Source: a virus
IMG/VR virus record: IMGVR_UViG_3300028073_000023
Span: 1-34,829 of that record
Reading direction: 5' to 3' (one strand)
Length of the DNA stretch: 34,829 nucleotides
The translations under genes were made by a program, and so were the position numbers. The notes below the pieces were generated by a model. That model saw nothing but the letters and a program-made list of their open reading frames with translations, was not told the origin of the DNA and ran no database searches. Positions 1 through 34,829 of the stretch are shown piece after piece. Every line of letters begins with the position of its first letter. Position 1 is the stretch's first letter.

Positions 1-618
1 ATCTTTTGCTTTAGCAATATCTGCTGGATTTGACTCTGGGAAGAATGCTCGTATGTAGTTTCCGATAGCGCTCATGCCTTTTTCATTTGCAGGAAGACCA
101 GCAGCTTTCCCTTGTCTCCATGCAGAAGATAAAGTCTTATCGCCAGACTTTCCAATCTGATAAGCACGTTTAACAAAGTCAGACATTGTCTCGCCAAGTA
201 TCTCACCTGCAGCCCTTACTGGAGCTGTGGCAACATTACCAGCCTTAGAAACAACGTTAGAAACAGCTCGTACTGGAGCTGATGTAGCCATAGTTGCAGC
301 AGCAGATGTGTTGAATGCACCCATCAATGGATTGACTTCTGGAGCTAACCCAGCCAGTTTGCTTTTATCATACAAATCACCAATAGTCTCCATTACTTTG
401 CTTGTTGTAGACTGTGGGTTAGCTAGATTGTATTGACGTTGAGCTTCAGCAGACTTTTGTCTTGCCATAGCCGTTGGAATCTCAGGATCAAATGGTCTCA
501 TTGTCTGTGGGTCAATATCAACAGCGTTTGTAAAGTCAAATCCAGTATCAGCAACTGGCGCTGCTTGATATACAAGACTTGCGCTGCCTGAATCAAACGT
601 TAGTTTTTTATCAGCCAT
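1..618 (-). CDS. Putative internal virion/ejection protein, N-terminal part (continues at 34829-34464)
   Basis: This leftward frame starts with ATG at 618-616 (MADKKLTFDSGSASLVYQ...) and is still open at base 1, giving 206 codons. The same frame resumes at base 34829 and ends at 34464, so the full protein would be 327 residues. The visible part has an acidic, proline-containing N-terminus, an Ala/Val-rich stretch around residues 100-140 (APVRAVSNVVSKAG) and a basic helical region. I do not recognise a family. It lies directly downstream of three other putative DNA-ejection proteins in the late operon, 8 bases after the stop of the 559-residue gene, so a virion role is inferred from position only. 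Confidence 0.8.
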   Translation of the reverse strand, partial: MADKKLTFDSGSASLVYQAAPVADTGFDFTNAVDIDPQTMRPFDPEIPTAMARQKSAEAQRQYNLANPQSTTSKVMETIGDLYDKSKLAGLAPEVNPLMGAFNTSAAATMATSAPVRAVSNVVSKAGNVATAPVRAAGEILGETMSDFVKRAYQIGKSGDKTLSSAWRQGKAAGLPANEKGMSAIGNYIRAFFPESNPADIAKAKD

Positions 619-26026: not shown

Positions 26027-26227
26027 ATGAGTTATCAAGAGTATTACGAAACCATTGAGCGAGTGCATCAGTGGATAGAAGAAAACAAGGTCAAGACAAC
26101 TTGGTTAGATGCGATGGCTATATTTGAAGATGAGTATCGTGAATATCTACACAGGCACTTATCATCAGATATTAAGTTTGAAGATTGGATGGAGTTGTCA
26201 CATCCAGAAGTACAAATAATCAACTAG
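26027..26227 (+). CDS. Hypothetical early protein, 66 aa
   Basis: An acidic, helical protein (MSYQEYYETIERVHQWIEEN, then AIFEDEYREYLHRHLSSDIK and FEDWMELSHPEV). AGGAGAATGTT precedes the ATG. It stands between the zinc-finger and annealing-protein genes of the rightward transcript. No family recognised. Confidence 0.7.
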   Translation: MSYQEYYETIERVHQWIEENKVKTTWLDAMAIFEDEYREYLHRHLSSDIKFEDWMELSHPEVQIIN

Positions 26228-26235
26228 GAGAAATC

Positions 26236-26853
26236 ATGAGCAAAGAAGGCTTTGTAAATATTCATGGCAAAGAATACAAAACAGTTGCCAAGCGTGTGCA
26301 GGAGTTTCGTGCAGCGTACCCAACATGGTCAATCATGACTGACGTTGTAAAGATTGACGATGATCAAGTTCTTATCAAAGCACAAATTATTAATGCTGAA
26401 AGCAAGATTGTAGCTACAGGTCATGGGCACGAGCTTAAGTCAAATGGTCAGATAAATCGTACATCATATGTCGAGAATGCAGAGACCTCCGCAATTGGAA
26501 GAGCGCTTGCTTGCTTGGGGCTTGGCGGTACAGAGTTTGCATCGGCAGACGAAGTAGCAAATGCTATATACCAACAAAATATGGCTAAACCTGCTGTAAA
26601 AAAGCCTGAAAGCATTACACCACTAGCTGGTGCTGGTAGCTCTTTAACGGAAGACGTTAAACAGTGGGTGATAGATGAAGCAATGGAGATTATTGCTGAC
26701 ATTGAATCTGGCAATATAGAAGCTGCGCATGATCGTGCGTCACTTATAACAGACCAAGAACAAAAGATGTTCTTATGGTCTAAACTAGGGAGCAAAGAAC
26801 GTGGTGCTATTAAAAGATATGCTGAATCACTCAAGGAGAAGCAAAATGTATGA
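26236..26853 (+). CDS. Putative single-strand annealing / recombination protein, 205 aa
   Basis: Residues 1-115 (FVNIHGKEYKTVAKRVQEFR, IDDDQVLIKAQIINAESKIV, then SYVENAETSAIGRALACLGL and GGTEFASADEV) follow the beta-hairpin plus ENAETSAIGRALA layout of Rad52/Erf-like phage annealing proteins. The C-terminal part (VKQWVIDEAMEIIADIESGN) is a helical domain of unknown role. The immediate downstream ssb gene supports the reading. The start at 26236 has TAGGAGAAATC ahead; the frame extends upstream but lacks a better start. A plain hypothetical with this core is the alternative. Confidence 0.7.
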   Translation: MSKEGFVNIHGKEYKTVAKRVQEFRAAYPTWSIMTDVVKIDDDQVLIKAQIINAESKIVATGHGHELKSNGQINRTSYVENAETSAIGRALACLGLGGTEFASADEVANAIYQQNMAKPAVKKPESITPLAGAGSSLTEDVKQWVIDEAMEIIADIESGNIEAAHDRASLITDQEQKMFLWSKLGSKERGAIKRYAESLKEKQNV

Positions 26854-27001
26854 AATAATAGTCGACTTTCGTAAGCTATCAAACCCTCCACAAAGCGAGA
26901 TTGATAAGCACGCACGAAAGGTGCAAGAAGTAATTCAACAACTTGGGCATAAATACAGACTAGCTAGACCAATGCCTAAAACACAACAAGGGAGTAAATA
27001 A
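26846..27001 (+). CDS. Hypothetical small protein, 51 aa
   Basis: Starts MYEIIVDFRKLSNPPQSEID and ends MPKTQQGSK; a short strand followed by a basic helix (KHARKVQEVIQQLGHKYR). AAGGAGAAGCAAA precedes the ATG, which overlaps the end of the annealing-protein gene by 8 bases. Its TAA shares a base with the ssb ATG (TAATG). A role beside SSB/annealing is suggested by coupling only. Confidence 0.65.
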   Translation: MYEIIVDFRKLSNPPQSEIDKHARKVQEVIQQLGHKYRLARPMPKTQQGSK

Positions 27002-27393
27002 TGAACGTTTTTAATGCAATTGGTAGAGTTGGTGGTGATGCCGAGTTGCGCTTCACACCAGAACAAACTGCAGTAGCATCATGGTCACTTGCTGTTAACT
27101 TTGGTTATGGCAAGTCACAAAACACAGTGTGGCTCAACTGCTCACTGTTTGGCAAACGTGCAGAGACATTGCAGCAGTACATCAAGAAAGGTAGTCAGCT
27201 TGGTGTTACTGGTGAGATTAATCTGCGTGAATACAAGAACAAGTCTGGAGAAGTTAAGCAGTCGCTAGATTTAGTTGTCTCTAATGTAAGTCTGATAGGT
27301 GGATCATCAGAGCCAAAAGAGGCATCGAAAGCTAATGGATATCAGAAACAGCCTGAGTCCGTTGAAGAATTAGAAGGGGACATTCCTTTCTAA
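27001..27393 (+). CDS. ssb: Single-stranded DNA-binding protein (SSB), 130 aa
   Basis: The OB-fold core MNVFNAIGRVGGDAELRFTP, VASWSLAVNFG, TVWLNCSLFGKRAETLQQYI and GSQLGVTGEINLREYKNKSG is the bacterial-type SSB pattern. The end (EGDIPF) is the acidic, proline-containing tip by which SSB recruits replication and recombination partners. It coats phage single-stranded DNA and probably works with the annealing protein and NinB. It is followed by a terminator-like hairpin. Confidence 0.92.
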   Translation: MNVFNAIGRVGGDAELRFTPEQTAVASWSLAVNFGYGKSQNTVWLNCSLFGKRAETLQQYIKKGSQLGVTGEINLREYKNKSGEVKQSLDLVVSNVSLIGGSSEPKEASKANGYQKQPESVEELEGDIPF

Positions 27394-28144: not shown

Positions 28145-28268
28145 TGTTTTTAATATCATTACATAGACAGCATAAAAAAGTCTCAATATGGCACGATTGT
28201 GAAGGTCAGTTTTGACTATAGAATGGAAAAAGTTATTTTTAAGACCAATTAACTTGTGGAGCTTACCG

Positions 28269-28484
28269 ATGGGATACAACAACATAACTGGCGATTCAAT
28301 TTCGACTCGCTTTGGAAGCAAAGAACAGCAGGAAAAGTTTGATCAGGAATTTGATCGCATCTTTGGCGATAAGAAAAAGAAAACTAACGGAGGATGGACT
28401 CCACCACCATTACCCAACTTTGATGAAGATAGGATAGATGTCATCGGTCAAAATGGTAATGATGGCGATCACTACGACAAATAA
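28269..28484 (+). CDS. Hypothetical acidic protein, 71 aa
   Basis: The ATG at 28269 (MGYNNITGDSISTRFGSKEQ) has GGAG seven bases ahead and is favoured over an upstream TTG at 28212. The protein has a charged middle (EKFDQEFDRIFGDKKKKTNG), a proline-rich WTPPPLPNFDED and an acidic tail. It resembles a disordered linker protein. It is the last rightward gene before the opposite-strand pqqA cassette. Confidence 0.6.
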   Translation: MGYNNITGDSISTRFGSKEQQEKFDQEFDRIFGDKKKKTNGGWTPPPLPNFDEDRIDVIGQNGNDGDHYDK

Positions 28485-28487
28485 AAA

Positions 28488-28509
28488 ATCCCCCAAATGA
28501 ATGGGGGAT
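28488..28509 (-). terminator. Rho-independent terminator for the leftward pqqA transcript
   Basis: A perfect 7-bp stem (ATCCCCC and GGGGGAT) encloses an 8-base loop. On the minus strand it is followed by TTTTTATTT, a classical terminator; on the plus strand it is preceded by the A-run and followed by CTGTC, so it points leftward only. It begins 29 bases after the pqqA stop codon. No other leftward gene nearby would need it. Confidence 0.85.
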
Positions 28510-28538
28510 CTGTCAATAGCAGTCTGTTACCCAGTCCA

Positions 28539-28610
28539 TTATTTGTTCATAACATACATGGTAACTTCAAAGCCAAAGCGCATTTCAGTAGCAGCAGGTT
28601 TTGTCCACAT
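28539..28610 (-). CDS. pqqA: PqqA, precursor peptide of pyrroloquinoline quinone, 23 aa
   Basis: The 23-codon frame (ATG 28610-28608, TAA 28541-28539) encodes a peptide that opens [18 protein letters not shown] and ends with a Tyr19 motif. The whole pattern (W2, KPA, RxGxEVTxY) is that of PqqA. The conserved Glu15 and Tyr19 (EVTMY) are the residues joined by the radical SAM enzyme PqqE in the PqqD-bound peptide and then excised to build PQQ. Length equals the 23 residues of Klebsiella PqqA. GGAGATATACC precedes the ATG, and a leftward terminator follows. It lies opposite to its neighbours, and no pqqB/C/D/E/F is present, so host enzymes must process it. Known enzymology is family knowledge; a phage role is inference. 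Confidence 0.9.
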
Positions 28611-28641
28611 GGTATATCTCCAGTTCAAAAAGTTTTTAAAA

Positions 28642-28660
28642 TGTAAACTTTTGGTTTACA
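28642..28660. promoter_or_regulatory. Inverted repeat upstream of pqqA
   Basis: TGTAAAC and GTTTACA arms (7 bp) flank TTTTG, 32 bases before the pqqA ATG. A weak leftward -10-like TATGAT lies immediately upstream at 28671-28666. The repeat could be an operator over the pqqA start site or a leader hairpin. It is unlike the palindromes at the other promoters. Confidence 0.45.
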
Positions 28661-28833: not shown

Positions 28834-29610
28834 ATGACAACAGAAACAATCAAGTGGGCTAACTACCTAAAAGAAGCTGTAGAACAAGAAGGGATTATTA
28901 GTTCTTGCTATAGCTTATTCCATGAATATAGCATCGGGAATCAATTGCTGGCTTACAGCCAACTTAAGTCTCGTGGATTGAATTTATCCCCAATCGCAAC
29001 ATATAAAAAATGGCAATCATTAGGTCGCAACGTAAAGCGTGGCGAAAAAGCTATCTCTTTATTGCTGCCTATCACAGTAAAACAAAAAGACAAAAATGGA
29101 GAAGAAACTGGAAAATTGTTCCGCATATACAAAGAAAAAGCCAACTGGTTTAGCTTGGATCAAACAGAAGGTGATGATTTTGTAGCTCCAGCTATTAAGG
29201 GATGGGATGCAGAAACTGCTCTTAAGAACCTAGATATTAAACAAGTAAAGTACGAGACAACGAATGGCAACTGTCAAGGATATGCAAAAGGTCGTGAGAT
29301 TGCTATAAATCCAGTTGCACAATATCCACATAAAACTCGCTTCCATGAGCTTGCTCACGTTGTATTAGGTCATACAGAAGAAGGTTTATTTGCTGATTCT
29401 GAATTGACACCAAGAGACATAAGAGAGGTTGAAGCTGAATCTGTAGCGTATATTTTGTGTAAAACTTTGAATCTTGATGGAGATAAAGAATCTCGTGGAT
29501 ATATTCAAAGCTGGTTGCGTGACAGTGAGATTAGCGACAAGTCAGCACAAAAGATATTTAGTGCAGCAGACAAAATTTTAAAAGCTGGGAAGGGATCAGA
29601 AAATGCCTAA
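28834..29610 (+). CDS. ardC: ArdC-type antirestriction protein, 258 aa
   Basis: The N-terminal half is an ssDNA-binding ArdC-N domain (YSIGNQLLAYSQLKSRGLNL, then ATYKKWQSLGRNVKRGEKAI). The C-terminal half is a zinc metallopeptidase-like domain with FHELAHVVLGHTEE (H171-E172-x2-H175) and a downstream EVEAESVAYIL (E200/E202). Plasmid ArdC protects incoming DNA from restriction; this domain pair also occurs in phages. Early expression from P3 with AAAGGAGAAGTAAC before the ATG is consistent with defence evasion soon after entry. Confidence 0.85.
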   Translation: MTTETIKWANYLKEAVEQEGIISSCYSLFHEYSIGNQLLAYSQLKSRGLNLSPIATYKKWQSLGRNVKRGEKAISLLLPITVKQKDKNGEETGKLFRIYKEKANWFSLDQTEGDDFVAPAIKGWDAETALKNLDIKQVKYETTNGNCQGYAKGREIAINPVAQYPHKTRFHELAHVVLGHTEEGLFADSELTPRDIREVEAESVAYILCKTLNLDGDKESRGYIQSWLRDSEISDKSAQKIFSAADKILKAGKGSENA

Positions 29611-32271: not shown

Positions 32272-33042
32272 TTAGTCCCCATACTTTTCTTTGAGATATT
32301 TAATTGTCAGTGGTAGCTCATCAAATCTGCCATCATGTACATCGTATAGCATATAGCAACCTCTAAAATGATTATTACCTTGAGCGCCAAGATAATCCTC
32401 ATTATGCTCATAACAACTGCCACATATTATGGCTGTCATTTCCCTGCCTGAAGCATCCATGCCGTAGGCTATTTGTCTTCCTTGCTGGTGAAACGCAAAG
32501 CATGACATATGCTTCTTAGTAAGTAACGCATTGGCAGTAGTAATAGGTCTGCCCATAACCCCAGAAGTAAAGTAGTGGCTAAAAGCAATCCCTTCAATAA
32601 CAACAACATCAAGGAAAGGATGAACAATCCAATCTTGATATGGCAAGTCATTAGTTGATACAAGACCTTCCAGCTTTCTATCATTATTAATCGCACGATC
32701 AATTCTATCCTCATGGTTTCCTAGAAGCATATGCATCTCAGGTTTGTACATCTTTTCTTTATTCTTTCTAGCCCTAGCATTAAATTCATACATAGGCTCT
32801 AGCAAAGCATCCATCGCTTCACGAGCAGCCCATAAGTCTTTCATGTATGAACGCCCCTCGAAGGACTTCTTACCGACATCATAAGAAGACAAAGATTCCA
32901 TATCTGCAAAATCGCCACCACACACGATGATGTCTGGCTTTTTCTTGATTATGTACCTTCCTATGCACCTCAAGAAAGTAAAATCATTGTTTGGTTTTGC
33001 TTGTACATCTGGTAGAACAAAAATCGTTTTTGATTTGGTCAT
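32272..33042 (-). CDS. Calcineurin-like metallophosphoesterase, 256 aa
   Basis: The metal-ligand motifs appear in order: FVLPDVQ (D12, with Q14 where H is usual), VCGGDFAD (D44), LLGNHEDR (N109, H110), then SHYF (H156) and a C-terminal FHQQG (H185). This is the binuclear metallophosphoesterase fold found in many phages, with substrates from phosphodiesters to nucleotides. The D-x-Q variation could alter metal choice. It stands between lysozyme and the large unknown gene, so host-takeover or virion roles are not distinguishable. Confidence 0.8.
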   Translation of the reverse strand: MTKSKTIFVLPDVQAKPNNDFTFLRCIGRYIIKKKPDIIVCGGDFADMESLSSYDVGKKSFEGRSYMKDLWAAREAMDALLEPMYEFNARARKNKEKMYKPEMHMLLGNHEDRIDRAINNDRKLEGLVSTNDLPYQDWIVHPFLDVVVIEGIAFSHYFTSGVMGRPITTANALLTKKHMSCFAFHQQGRQIAYGMDASGREMTAIICGSCYEHNEDYLGAQGNNHFRGCYMLYDVHDGRFDELPLTIKYLKEKYGD

Positions 33043-34288: not shown

Positions 34289-34464
34289 ATCTTTATTGTC
34301 CACCCATGAGCTGCAGCCCATAGATAGAATATGACTGCTAGTGTCATTGCTCCAAGACCTTTAAGAGTAATCTTGCCAACTGCTGTAAACTGCTTGTCTA
34401 GCCACTCTTGAATTGCTTCCTTGATGGCTTCTTTATGTAGTTCCTTTTGCTCTTCTGGTGTCAT
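34285..34464 (-). CDS. Small membrane protein, second holin candidate, 59 aa
   Basis: ATG at 34464 overlaps the stop of the 327-residue gene. The product has a charged amphipathic N-terminal helix (PEEQKELHKEAIKEAIQEWL) and one clear membrane span (LGAMTLAVIFYLWAAAHGW, about residues 37-55), short C-terminus. Position just upstream of the lysis genes makes it a candidate holin/antiholin or tail-associated membrane protein. An alternative is a small regulator. Confidence 0.6.
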   Translation of the reverse strand: MTPEEQKELHKEAIKEAIQEWLDKQFTAVGKITLKGLGAMTLAVIFYLWAAAHGWTIKI

Positions 34465-34829
34465 TATTCACTCCAATTGATTCTTGGTGCTAATAAACTT
34501 AGGTTATACAGGTCTTCATTGGTAGCTTGTGGAAGCATTCCATAGTAACGCTGTGCAGCTCCTGTTCCATATCCTATATTTGCTTGAATTCGTGGAGATA
34601 CTATAGAAGGTATTGTTCTTGGATTCTTCAATACATCCACAAAAGTTTTTCCGCTTGGAAGCCATGACGCTTCTTGCCCAGCTCTAAATGCATTTGCCCA
34701 TCCTAAGTCTTGTTGTGCAGCTTGAAGCTCTTGAGGCAATACTAAACTAGCATCTTTAGGTAAAGACCAGTTCATTCTTGGGTCAATCTTAGCAATCCTT
34801 GCCTCAGCCTCTTGAGCCTTTTTCATAAC
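34464..34829 (-). CDS. Putative internal virion/ejection protein, C-terminal part (continues from 618-1)
   Basis: The leftward frame is open at base 34829 and ends at 34464 (TAA). Its first visible codon is GTT, then MKKAQEAEARIAKIDPRMNW. Nothing here marks a gene start, and the frame continues directly from the 206 codons at bases 618-1, so the internal ATG at 34826 need not be a true start. This 121-codon part includes LPKDASLVLPQELQAAQQDL, FRAGQEASWLPSGKTFVDVL and a final NLSLLAPRINWSE. Family not recognised. Confidence 0.75.
   Translation of the reverse strand, partial: VMKKAQEAEARIAKIDPRMNWSLPKDASLVLPQELQAAQQDLGWANAFRAGQEASWLPSGKTFVDVLKNPRTIPSIVSPRIQANIGYGTGAAQRYYGMLPQATNEDLYNLSLLAPRINWSE

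Follow-up and report, generated by a model that had tools for sequence, protein, structure and literature searches.

The closest described counterpart of the gene reported here is the PqqA of the Methylophilaceae (PF08042 / TIGR02107), the precursor peptide of PQQ. PqqD binds the leader of PqqA and PqqE acts on its Glu and Tyr (PMC10906245); the cross-linking of the two is stated in PMC9851590, which also describes a methylotroph whose five pqqA copies include three stand-alone ones, with expression of the stand-alone copies. Viruses have been associated with this peptide as well. Population VP_266 from Lake Baikal is a T4-like virus with PqqA, a methanol dehydrogenase and assigned Methylophilaceae hosts (PMC7678222; 2020), and viral pqqA, pqqE and pqqD are listed for reservoir sediments, where they are read as genes for phosphate solubilisation, the consulted passages of that report holding no gene-level analysis of viral pqqA (PMC13188868).

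Here we analyse a 34,829-base IMG/VR virus record (IMGVR_UViG_3300028073_000023), the whole of which we call the window, that carries a single copy of PqqA. Its 23-residue peptide matches, residue for residue, the PqqA encoded in numerous genomes of Methylotenera, Methylophilus and Candidatus Methylopumilus, and host copies can also stand alone; the window gene differs from them in being phage-borne and single, with its own terminator and with no pqqBCDE in the record. With VP_266 it shares a phage-encoded PqqA and Methylophilaceae hosts, but the window virus is related to the Methylophilales phage Venkman and has the peptide gene alone, whereas VP_266 is T4-like and adds the dehydrogenase. 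The sediment viruses likewise count pqqA among their auxiliary genes, although the pqqE and pqqD named in the part of that report consulted were found in none of the at least 381 viral loci listed here. The bare fact of a viral PqqA is already known from Lake Baikal; what is new is its near-universality in methylophages. Our literature search, the coverage of which was incomplete so that an earlier report elsewhere is possible, returned no statement that cultured methylophages carry pqqA. We consider it likely that the window gene is a functional gene of host origin, kept as a separate transcription unit and supplying PqqA to the enzymes of the host.

Table 1. Coordinates of pqqA and of surrounding features in the window
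Feature	Position	Strand	Remarks
Single-strand DNA-binding protein	27001..27393	(+)	belongs to the same rightward early region
Flanking ORF, no assigned function	28212..28484	(+)	relatives of its downstream portion, 28269-28484, occur in P19250A and Manatee phages
Intrinsic terminator downstream of pqqA	28486..28511	(-)	10-pair stem, loop of 6, T-rich tail
pqqA	28539..28610	(-)	23 codons and stop; translation, PF08042, TIGR02107, same peptide in Methylophilaceae genomes
Ribosome-binding region GGAGATATACC	28611..28621	(-)	abuts ATG; GGAG at 28618-28621; from sequence
Inverted repeat TGTAAAC-ttttg-GTTTACA	28642..28660		separates the ArdC-like gene from pqqA, some 30 bases ahead of the start of the latter
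Flanking ORF, ArdC-like antirestriction protein	28834..29610	(+)	PF08401, phrog_7245

The reverse complement of the pqqA interval runs from ATG to TAA and translates into the 23-residue peptide, which the initial annotation, made from the letters alone, had taken for a full-length PqqA that a profile search without a match would speak against. Both profile searches matched above their curated cut-offs: PF08042 with an E value of 6.4e-11 and 42.4 bits (cut-off 21.1) over all 19 profile positions, and TIGR02107, an NCBIfam equivalog, with 1.8e-10 and 40.4 bits (cut-off 20). The comparison with Methylophilaceae genomes that had been suggested at the same time returned the identity described above. 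The C-terminal half of the peptide holds the ExxxY spacing, with Glu15 and Tyr19 within EVTMY, and the proposal that these are the reactive residues agrees with Glu16 and Tyr20 in the numbering of PMC10906245, the spacing being equal. Since the profile scores are high and the peptide is conserved across unrelated phages, a chance ORF can be ruled out. At the DNA level the gene has at least seven synonymous differences from the nearest host gene among those compared, and the identity of the peptide to host PqqA makes it a likely substrate for PqqD binding and for cross-linking by PqqE.

The gene lies in a gap between rightward genes, as had been noted, and its ribosome site, previously called strong, places GGAG 7 bases ahead of the ATG. 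The stretch GGAGATATACCATG at window positions 28608-28621 is the same as the sequence around the ribosome site in widely used T7 expression vectors; a vector origin was rejected and the match regarded as a coincidence, given that the flanking bases differ and that a similar leader precedes the gene in a viral relative (L288). The terminator has a fold z-score of -2.98, no shuffled sequence being equally stable, and the inverted repeat upstream is possibly an operator or an element of the promoter region; a promoter search ahead of pqqA gave no convincing candidate. Because a terminator on its own strand follows the gene and the inverted repeat precedes it, pqqA appears to be transcribed independently.

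That the window is a genuine viral genome harbouring a host-type metabolic gene is indicated by portal, terminase, endolysin and SSB genes found in profile searches; the same gene is present in cultured phages, and host contamination was considered and rejected for both. The late genes match Venkman and MW202481, the uncultured Manatee Spring phage, with identities to the two of 65-66% for the terminase (66% to Venkman), 54-61% for the portal (54% to Venkman) and 50-73% for several structural proteins. Venkman infects OM43 strain H5P1 (PMC8163748). A metallophosphoesterase at window 32272-33042 is 60% identical to that of MEP402, and the genome is by these comparisons mosaic, an MEP402-like phosphoesterase standing beside Venkman-like late genes, with no close DNA relative of window 10000-34829 in a megablast search of phage records. 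The genes at window 1-618 and 34464-34829 are cut off at the two ends and share a strand; a single gene spanning a circular junction could account for both, and neither end part had relatives among phage records. From the Venkman and Manatee matches, together with a peptide identical to Methylophilaceae PqqA, a host in this family is well supported, the support applying to the family and not to an exact genus.

The host genomes fit the PQQ-making methylotroph that the initial annotation had foreseen. All ten Methylophilaceae genomes inspected have pqqA, in 1-12 copies each, and a PQQ-dependent alcohol dehydrogenase, and nine have PqqE over the cut-off; the tenth, that of an uncultured OM43 member, amounts to about 0.9 Mb spread over many contigs and is probably partial. 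In the complete genome of LSUCC0665 the nearest pqqA is about 109 kb from pqqE. The absence of other pqq genes from the phage, also asserted beforehand, was borne out: PqqB, PqqC, PqqD, PqqE and XoxF were found neither in the window nor in six relatives searched whole, and pqqB, C, D and E do not adjoin pqqA in the window as they would in a pqqABCDE operon, an arrangement that, host copies also standing alone, is no requirement for belonging to the PqqA family. Positive controls on host DNA worked in the corresponding search of the at least 381 viral loci listed, none of which has PqqB or PqqC either, and none of 44 whole viral records, up to 356 kb, has a PqqE over the cut-off. A single locus among the matches listed has both pqqA and a methanol dehydrogenase (L416; IMGVR_UViG_3300044568_004338, record G044), the latter of XoxF type and truncated at the contig start; it resembles the gene pair described for VP_266.

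A tblastn search of 50,697 phage records with the peptide matched only Venkman, P19250A, MEP301, MEP401, MEP402 and four Melnitz strains, the Manatee phage as an environmental relative, and two contigs named Acinetobacter phage MD-2021a; two other PqqA types used as queries added no phage records. The larger MD-2021a contig (L248, CAKLQF020000010.1) was discarded as a bacterial chromosome, since it contains pqqABCDE, ppk and a dipeptidase gene. PqqA is thus present in all Methylophilales phages found among these records, including lineages with few shared genes. In the six phage genomes subjected to profile search there is one PqqA each, always over the cut-off and always with Glu15 and Tyr19. 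The cultured pairs are Venkman and Melnitz on H5P1, MEP401 and MEP402 on FZCC0133, and P19250A on IMCC19250. Relatives of the Venkman gene gp26 occur in 102 Vibrio, Flavobacterium and other phages, all without pqqA, and the presence of the gene in cultured phages therefore follows the host. It is missing from the annotation of four of the six records inspected, and in those of Melnitz and Manatee the wrong strand is annotated with a hypothetical ORF that covers it (L246 3961-4056, L247 2067-2195). A text search for 'pqq' found nothing in the papers on Venkman, MEP301 and MEP401/402, and the Melnitz paper names PQQ solely as a medium component.

To find further viral genes, IMG/VR was searched by four degenerate DNA pattern scans, which gave at least 381 loci, a PqqA ORF being present in at least about 375; among the matches listed, nearly all of these ORFs are preceded by a Shine-Dalgarno-like site. 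As the patterns fix some residues, conservation at those residues was judged solely on a set of contigs chosen by gp26 and not by the PqqA motif. Of 77 such contigs with enough sequence, 52 carry PqqA, none of the genes is degraded and every one retains both Glu15 and Tyr19; the other 25 have no pqqA nearby. A second neighbour set, built on MEP402 gp69, consists mostly of relatives without pqqA at that place. In the gp26-selected contigs pqqA has a lower pN/pS, 0.11, than gp26, 0.295; for pqqA in the pattern set the ratio is 0.21 among the matches listed, with a pS of 0.675. The exact peptide of the window occurs, again among the matches listed, in 28 viral genes comprising 26 different DNA sequences. 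Low pN/pS and so many DNA versions of one peptide show that it is the peptide on which selection acts.

We regard pqqA as most likely an auxiliary metabolic gene for a substrate consumed by the host PqqBCDE, and probably as a standard means by which Methylophilales phages sustain methanol oxidation during infection. Phage PqqA would be supplied in the infected cell, PqqE, with PqqD, would cross-link Glu15 and Tyr19, and later enzymes would trim and oxidise the cross-linked peptide to PQQ. One peptide is spent per PQQ, whereas PqqB to PqqE can be used again and are present in the cell beforehand; because the peptide is consumed and the enzymes are not, a phage relying on continued methanol oxidation would need to bring only PqqA. 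If a phage silences host messages or requires newly made dehydrogenase, the consumed peptide would be the first component to become scarce, and pqqA alone would then be the cheapest remedy. Cyanophage psbA is similar in that the phage brings just the fast-consumed part of an energy pathway of its host, but PsbA, a protein subunit, is replaced after damage, whereas PqqA is a peptide substrate that is turned into a cofactor. According to a passage of PMC9851590 that cites earlier work, a cell-free extract of Gluconobacter formed PQQ from added PqqA (70-80%).

Expression, use by host enzymes, a gain in PQQ and a better phage yield are all steps that we infer in this proposal, and several points speak against it. 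The hosts already hold several pqqA copies, and PqqB and PqqC may be limiting, as suggested by PMC9851590; that PqqA is rate-limiting in infection, as the initial annotation had it, is a conjecture, and so is the conversion of the phage peptide to PQQ. PQQ remains in existing dehydrogenase, so that a short infection may need no new cofactor unless more enzyme is made, and about a third of the gp26-selected contigs (25/77) do without a nearby pqqA.

An improbable alternative is that the phages raise PQQ for another purpose, e.g. redox protection or occupation of the PQQ importer PqqU. According to PMC12124388, PqqU is a high-affinity TonB-dependent importer, and viral PqqA types other than that of the Methylophilales hint at hosts that employ PQQ in other ways; every cultured case, however, is a phage of methylotrophs, and PQQ-dependent alcohol dehydrogenases are encoded in methylotroph host genomes. 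Slightly less credible still is a decoy or brake, with phage peptide competing for PqqD and PqqE and thereby lowering or re-timing host PQQ synthesis. The peptide is made without the enzymes, and it could be abundant, as a strong ribosome site precedes the gene and a dedicated terminator follows it. A decoy would nonetheless be expected to lose Glu15 or Tyr19, both of which are kept in all 52 gp26-selected genes and in the six phage genomes, and the peptide is identical to the host substrate; the notion that a change at residue 4 (K to T or S) is phage-specific was dropped, since it is found in hosts too. We give very little weight to the view that pqqA is a passenger, picked up from the host by recombination and of no benefit to the phage. 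Capture would be easy with several stand-alone pqqA copies in the host, but purifying selection is strong, a passenger of 72 bases would soon decay in compact genomes, and the gene is carried by unrelated phage lineages of one host group while being nearly absent elsewhere. Least probable of all is a transcript as the active product, e.g. an RNA antisense to neighbouring phage genes, for although pqqA is antisense to the genes on either side in Venkman, MEP301, the Manatee phage and the window, the peptide is kept despite many synonymous differences, and 163 of 291 viral loci among the matches listed are co-directional with both neighbours (54 are antisense to both). The decoy, the passenger and the RNA fit the selection data less well than does supply of the peptide to host enzymes.

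Among the matches listed, a terminator follows pqqA in 60 of the 291 viral loci (21%) as compared with 120 of 2,923 other gene ends (4%). We lean, by a little, towards the wider view that a lone pqqA is near-universal and repeatedly acquired in lytic phages of PQQ-dependent bacteria, from viruses of 35 kb to records of more than 300 kb, and that it has been missed because gene callers skip 23-codon genes. Its breadth is what would surprise a specialist, and the case illustrates that auxiliary genes of this small size can escape routine gene calling. In the sea and in fresh water, Methylophilales are important methanol consumers. Should the PQQ precursor be carried by all phages of this group, the supply of the cofactor would be a candidate point of control over infection and methanol turnover, and a lone pqqA would be an inexpensive means of recognising phages whose hosts make PQQ; if the wider view holds, the supply of a consumed precursor would generally limit phage growth in methylotrophs, comparable to psbA and photosystem repair in cyanobacteria. 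As cultured phage-host pairs exist, the idea of supply is directly testable.

Viral PqqA types vary, with endings such as RLGFEITMYFKTR or RLGMEITAYVMNR, and since they differ, hosts beyond the Methylophilales are likely among the IMG/VR carriers. A large group is of the type RLGFE[VI]TMYF (L003, L008, L476-L584), for which we found no cultured phage representative and which includes some records of 221-340 kb. Two relatives of the early region of the window (26185-26853), L286 and L288, have the clearly divergent PqqA peptides WTKPVATEHRIGFEVTCYAMCR and WTKPQATEIRLGMEITAYVCNR, encoded on the same strand and at a similar place as in the window, and the leader of the window gene is resembled in one of the two (L288); it is as if the PqqA of these relatives had been exchanged to suit the host.
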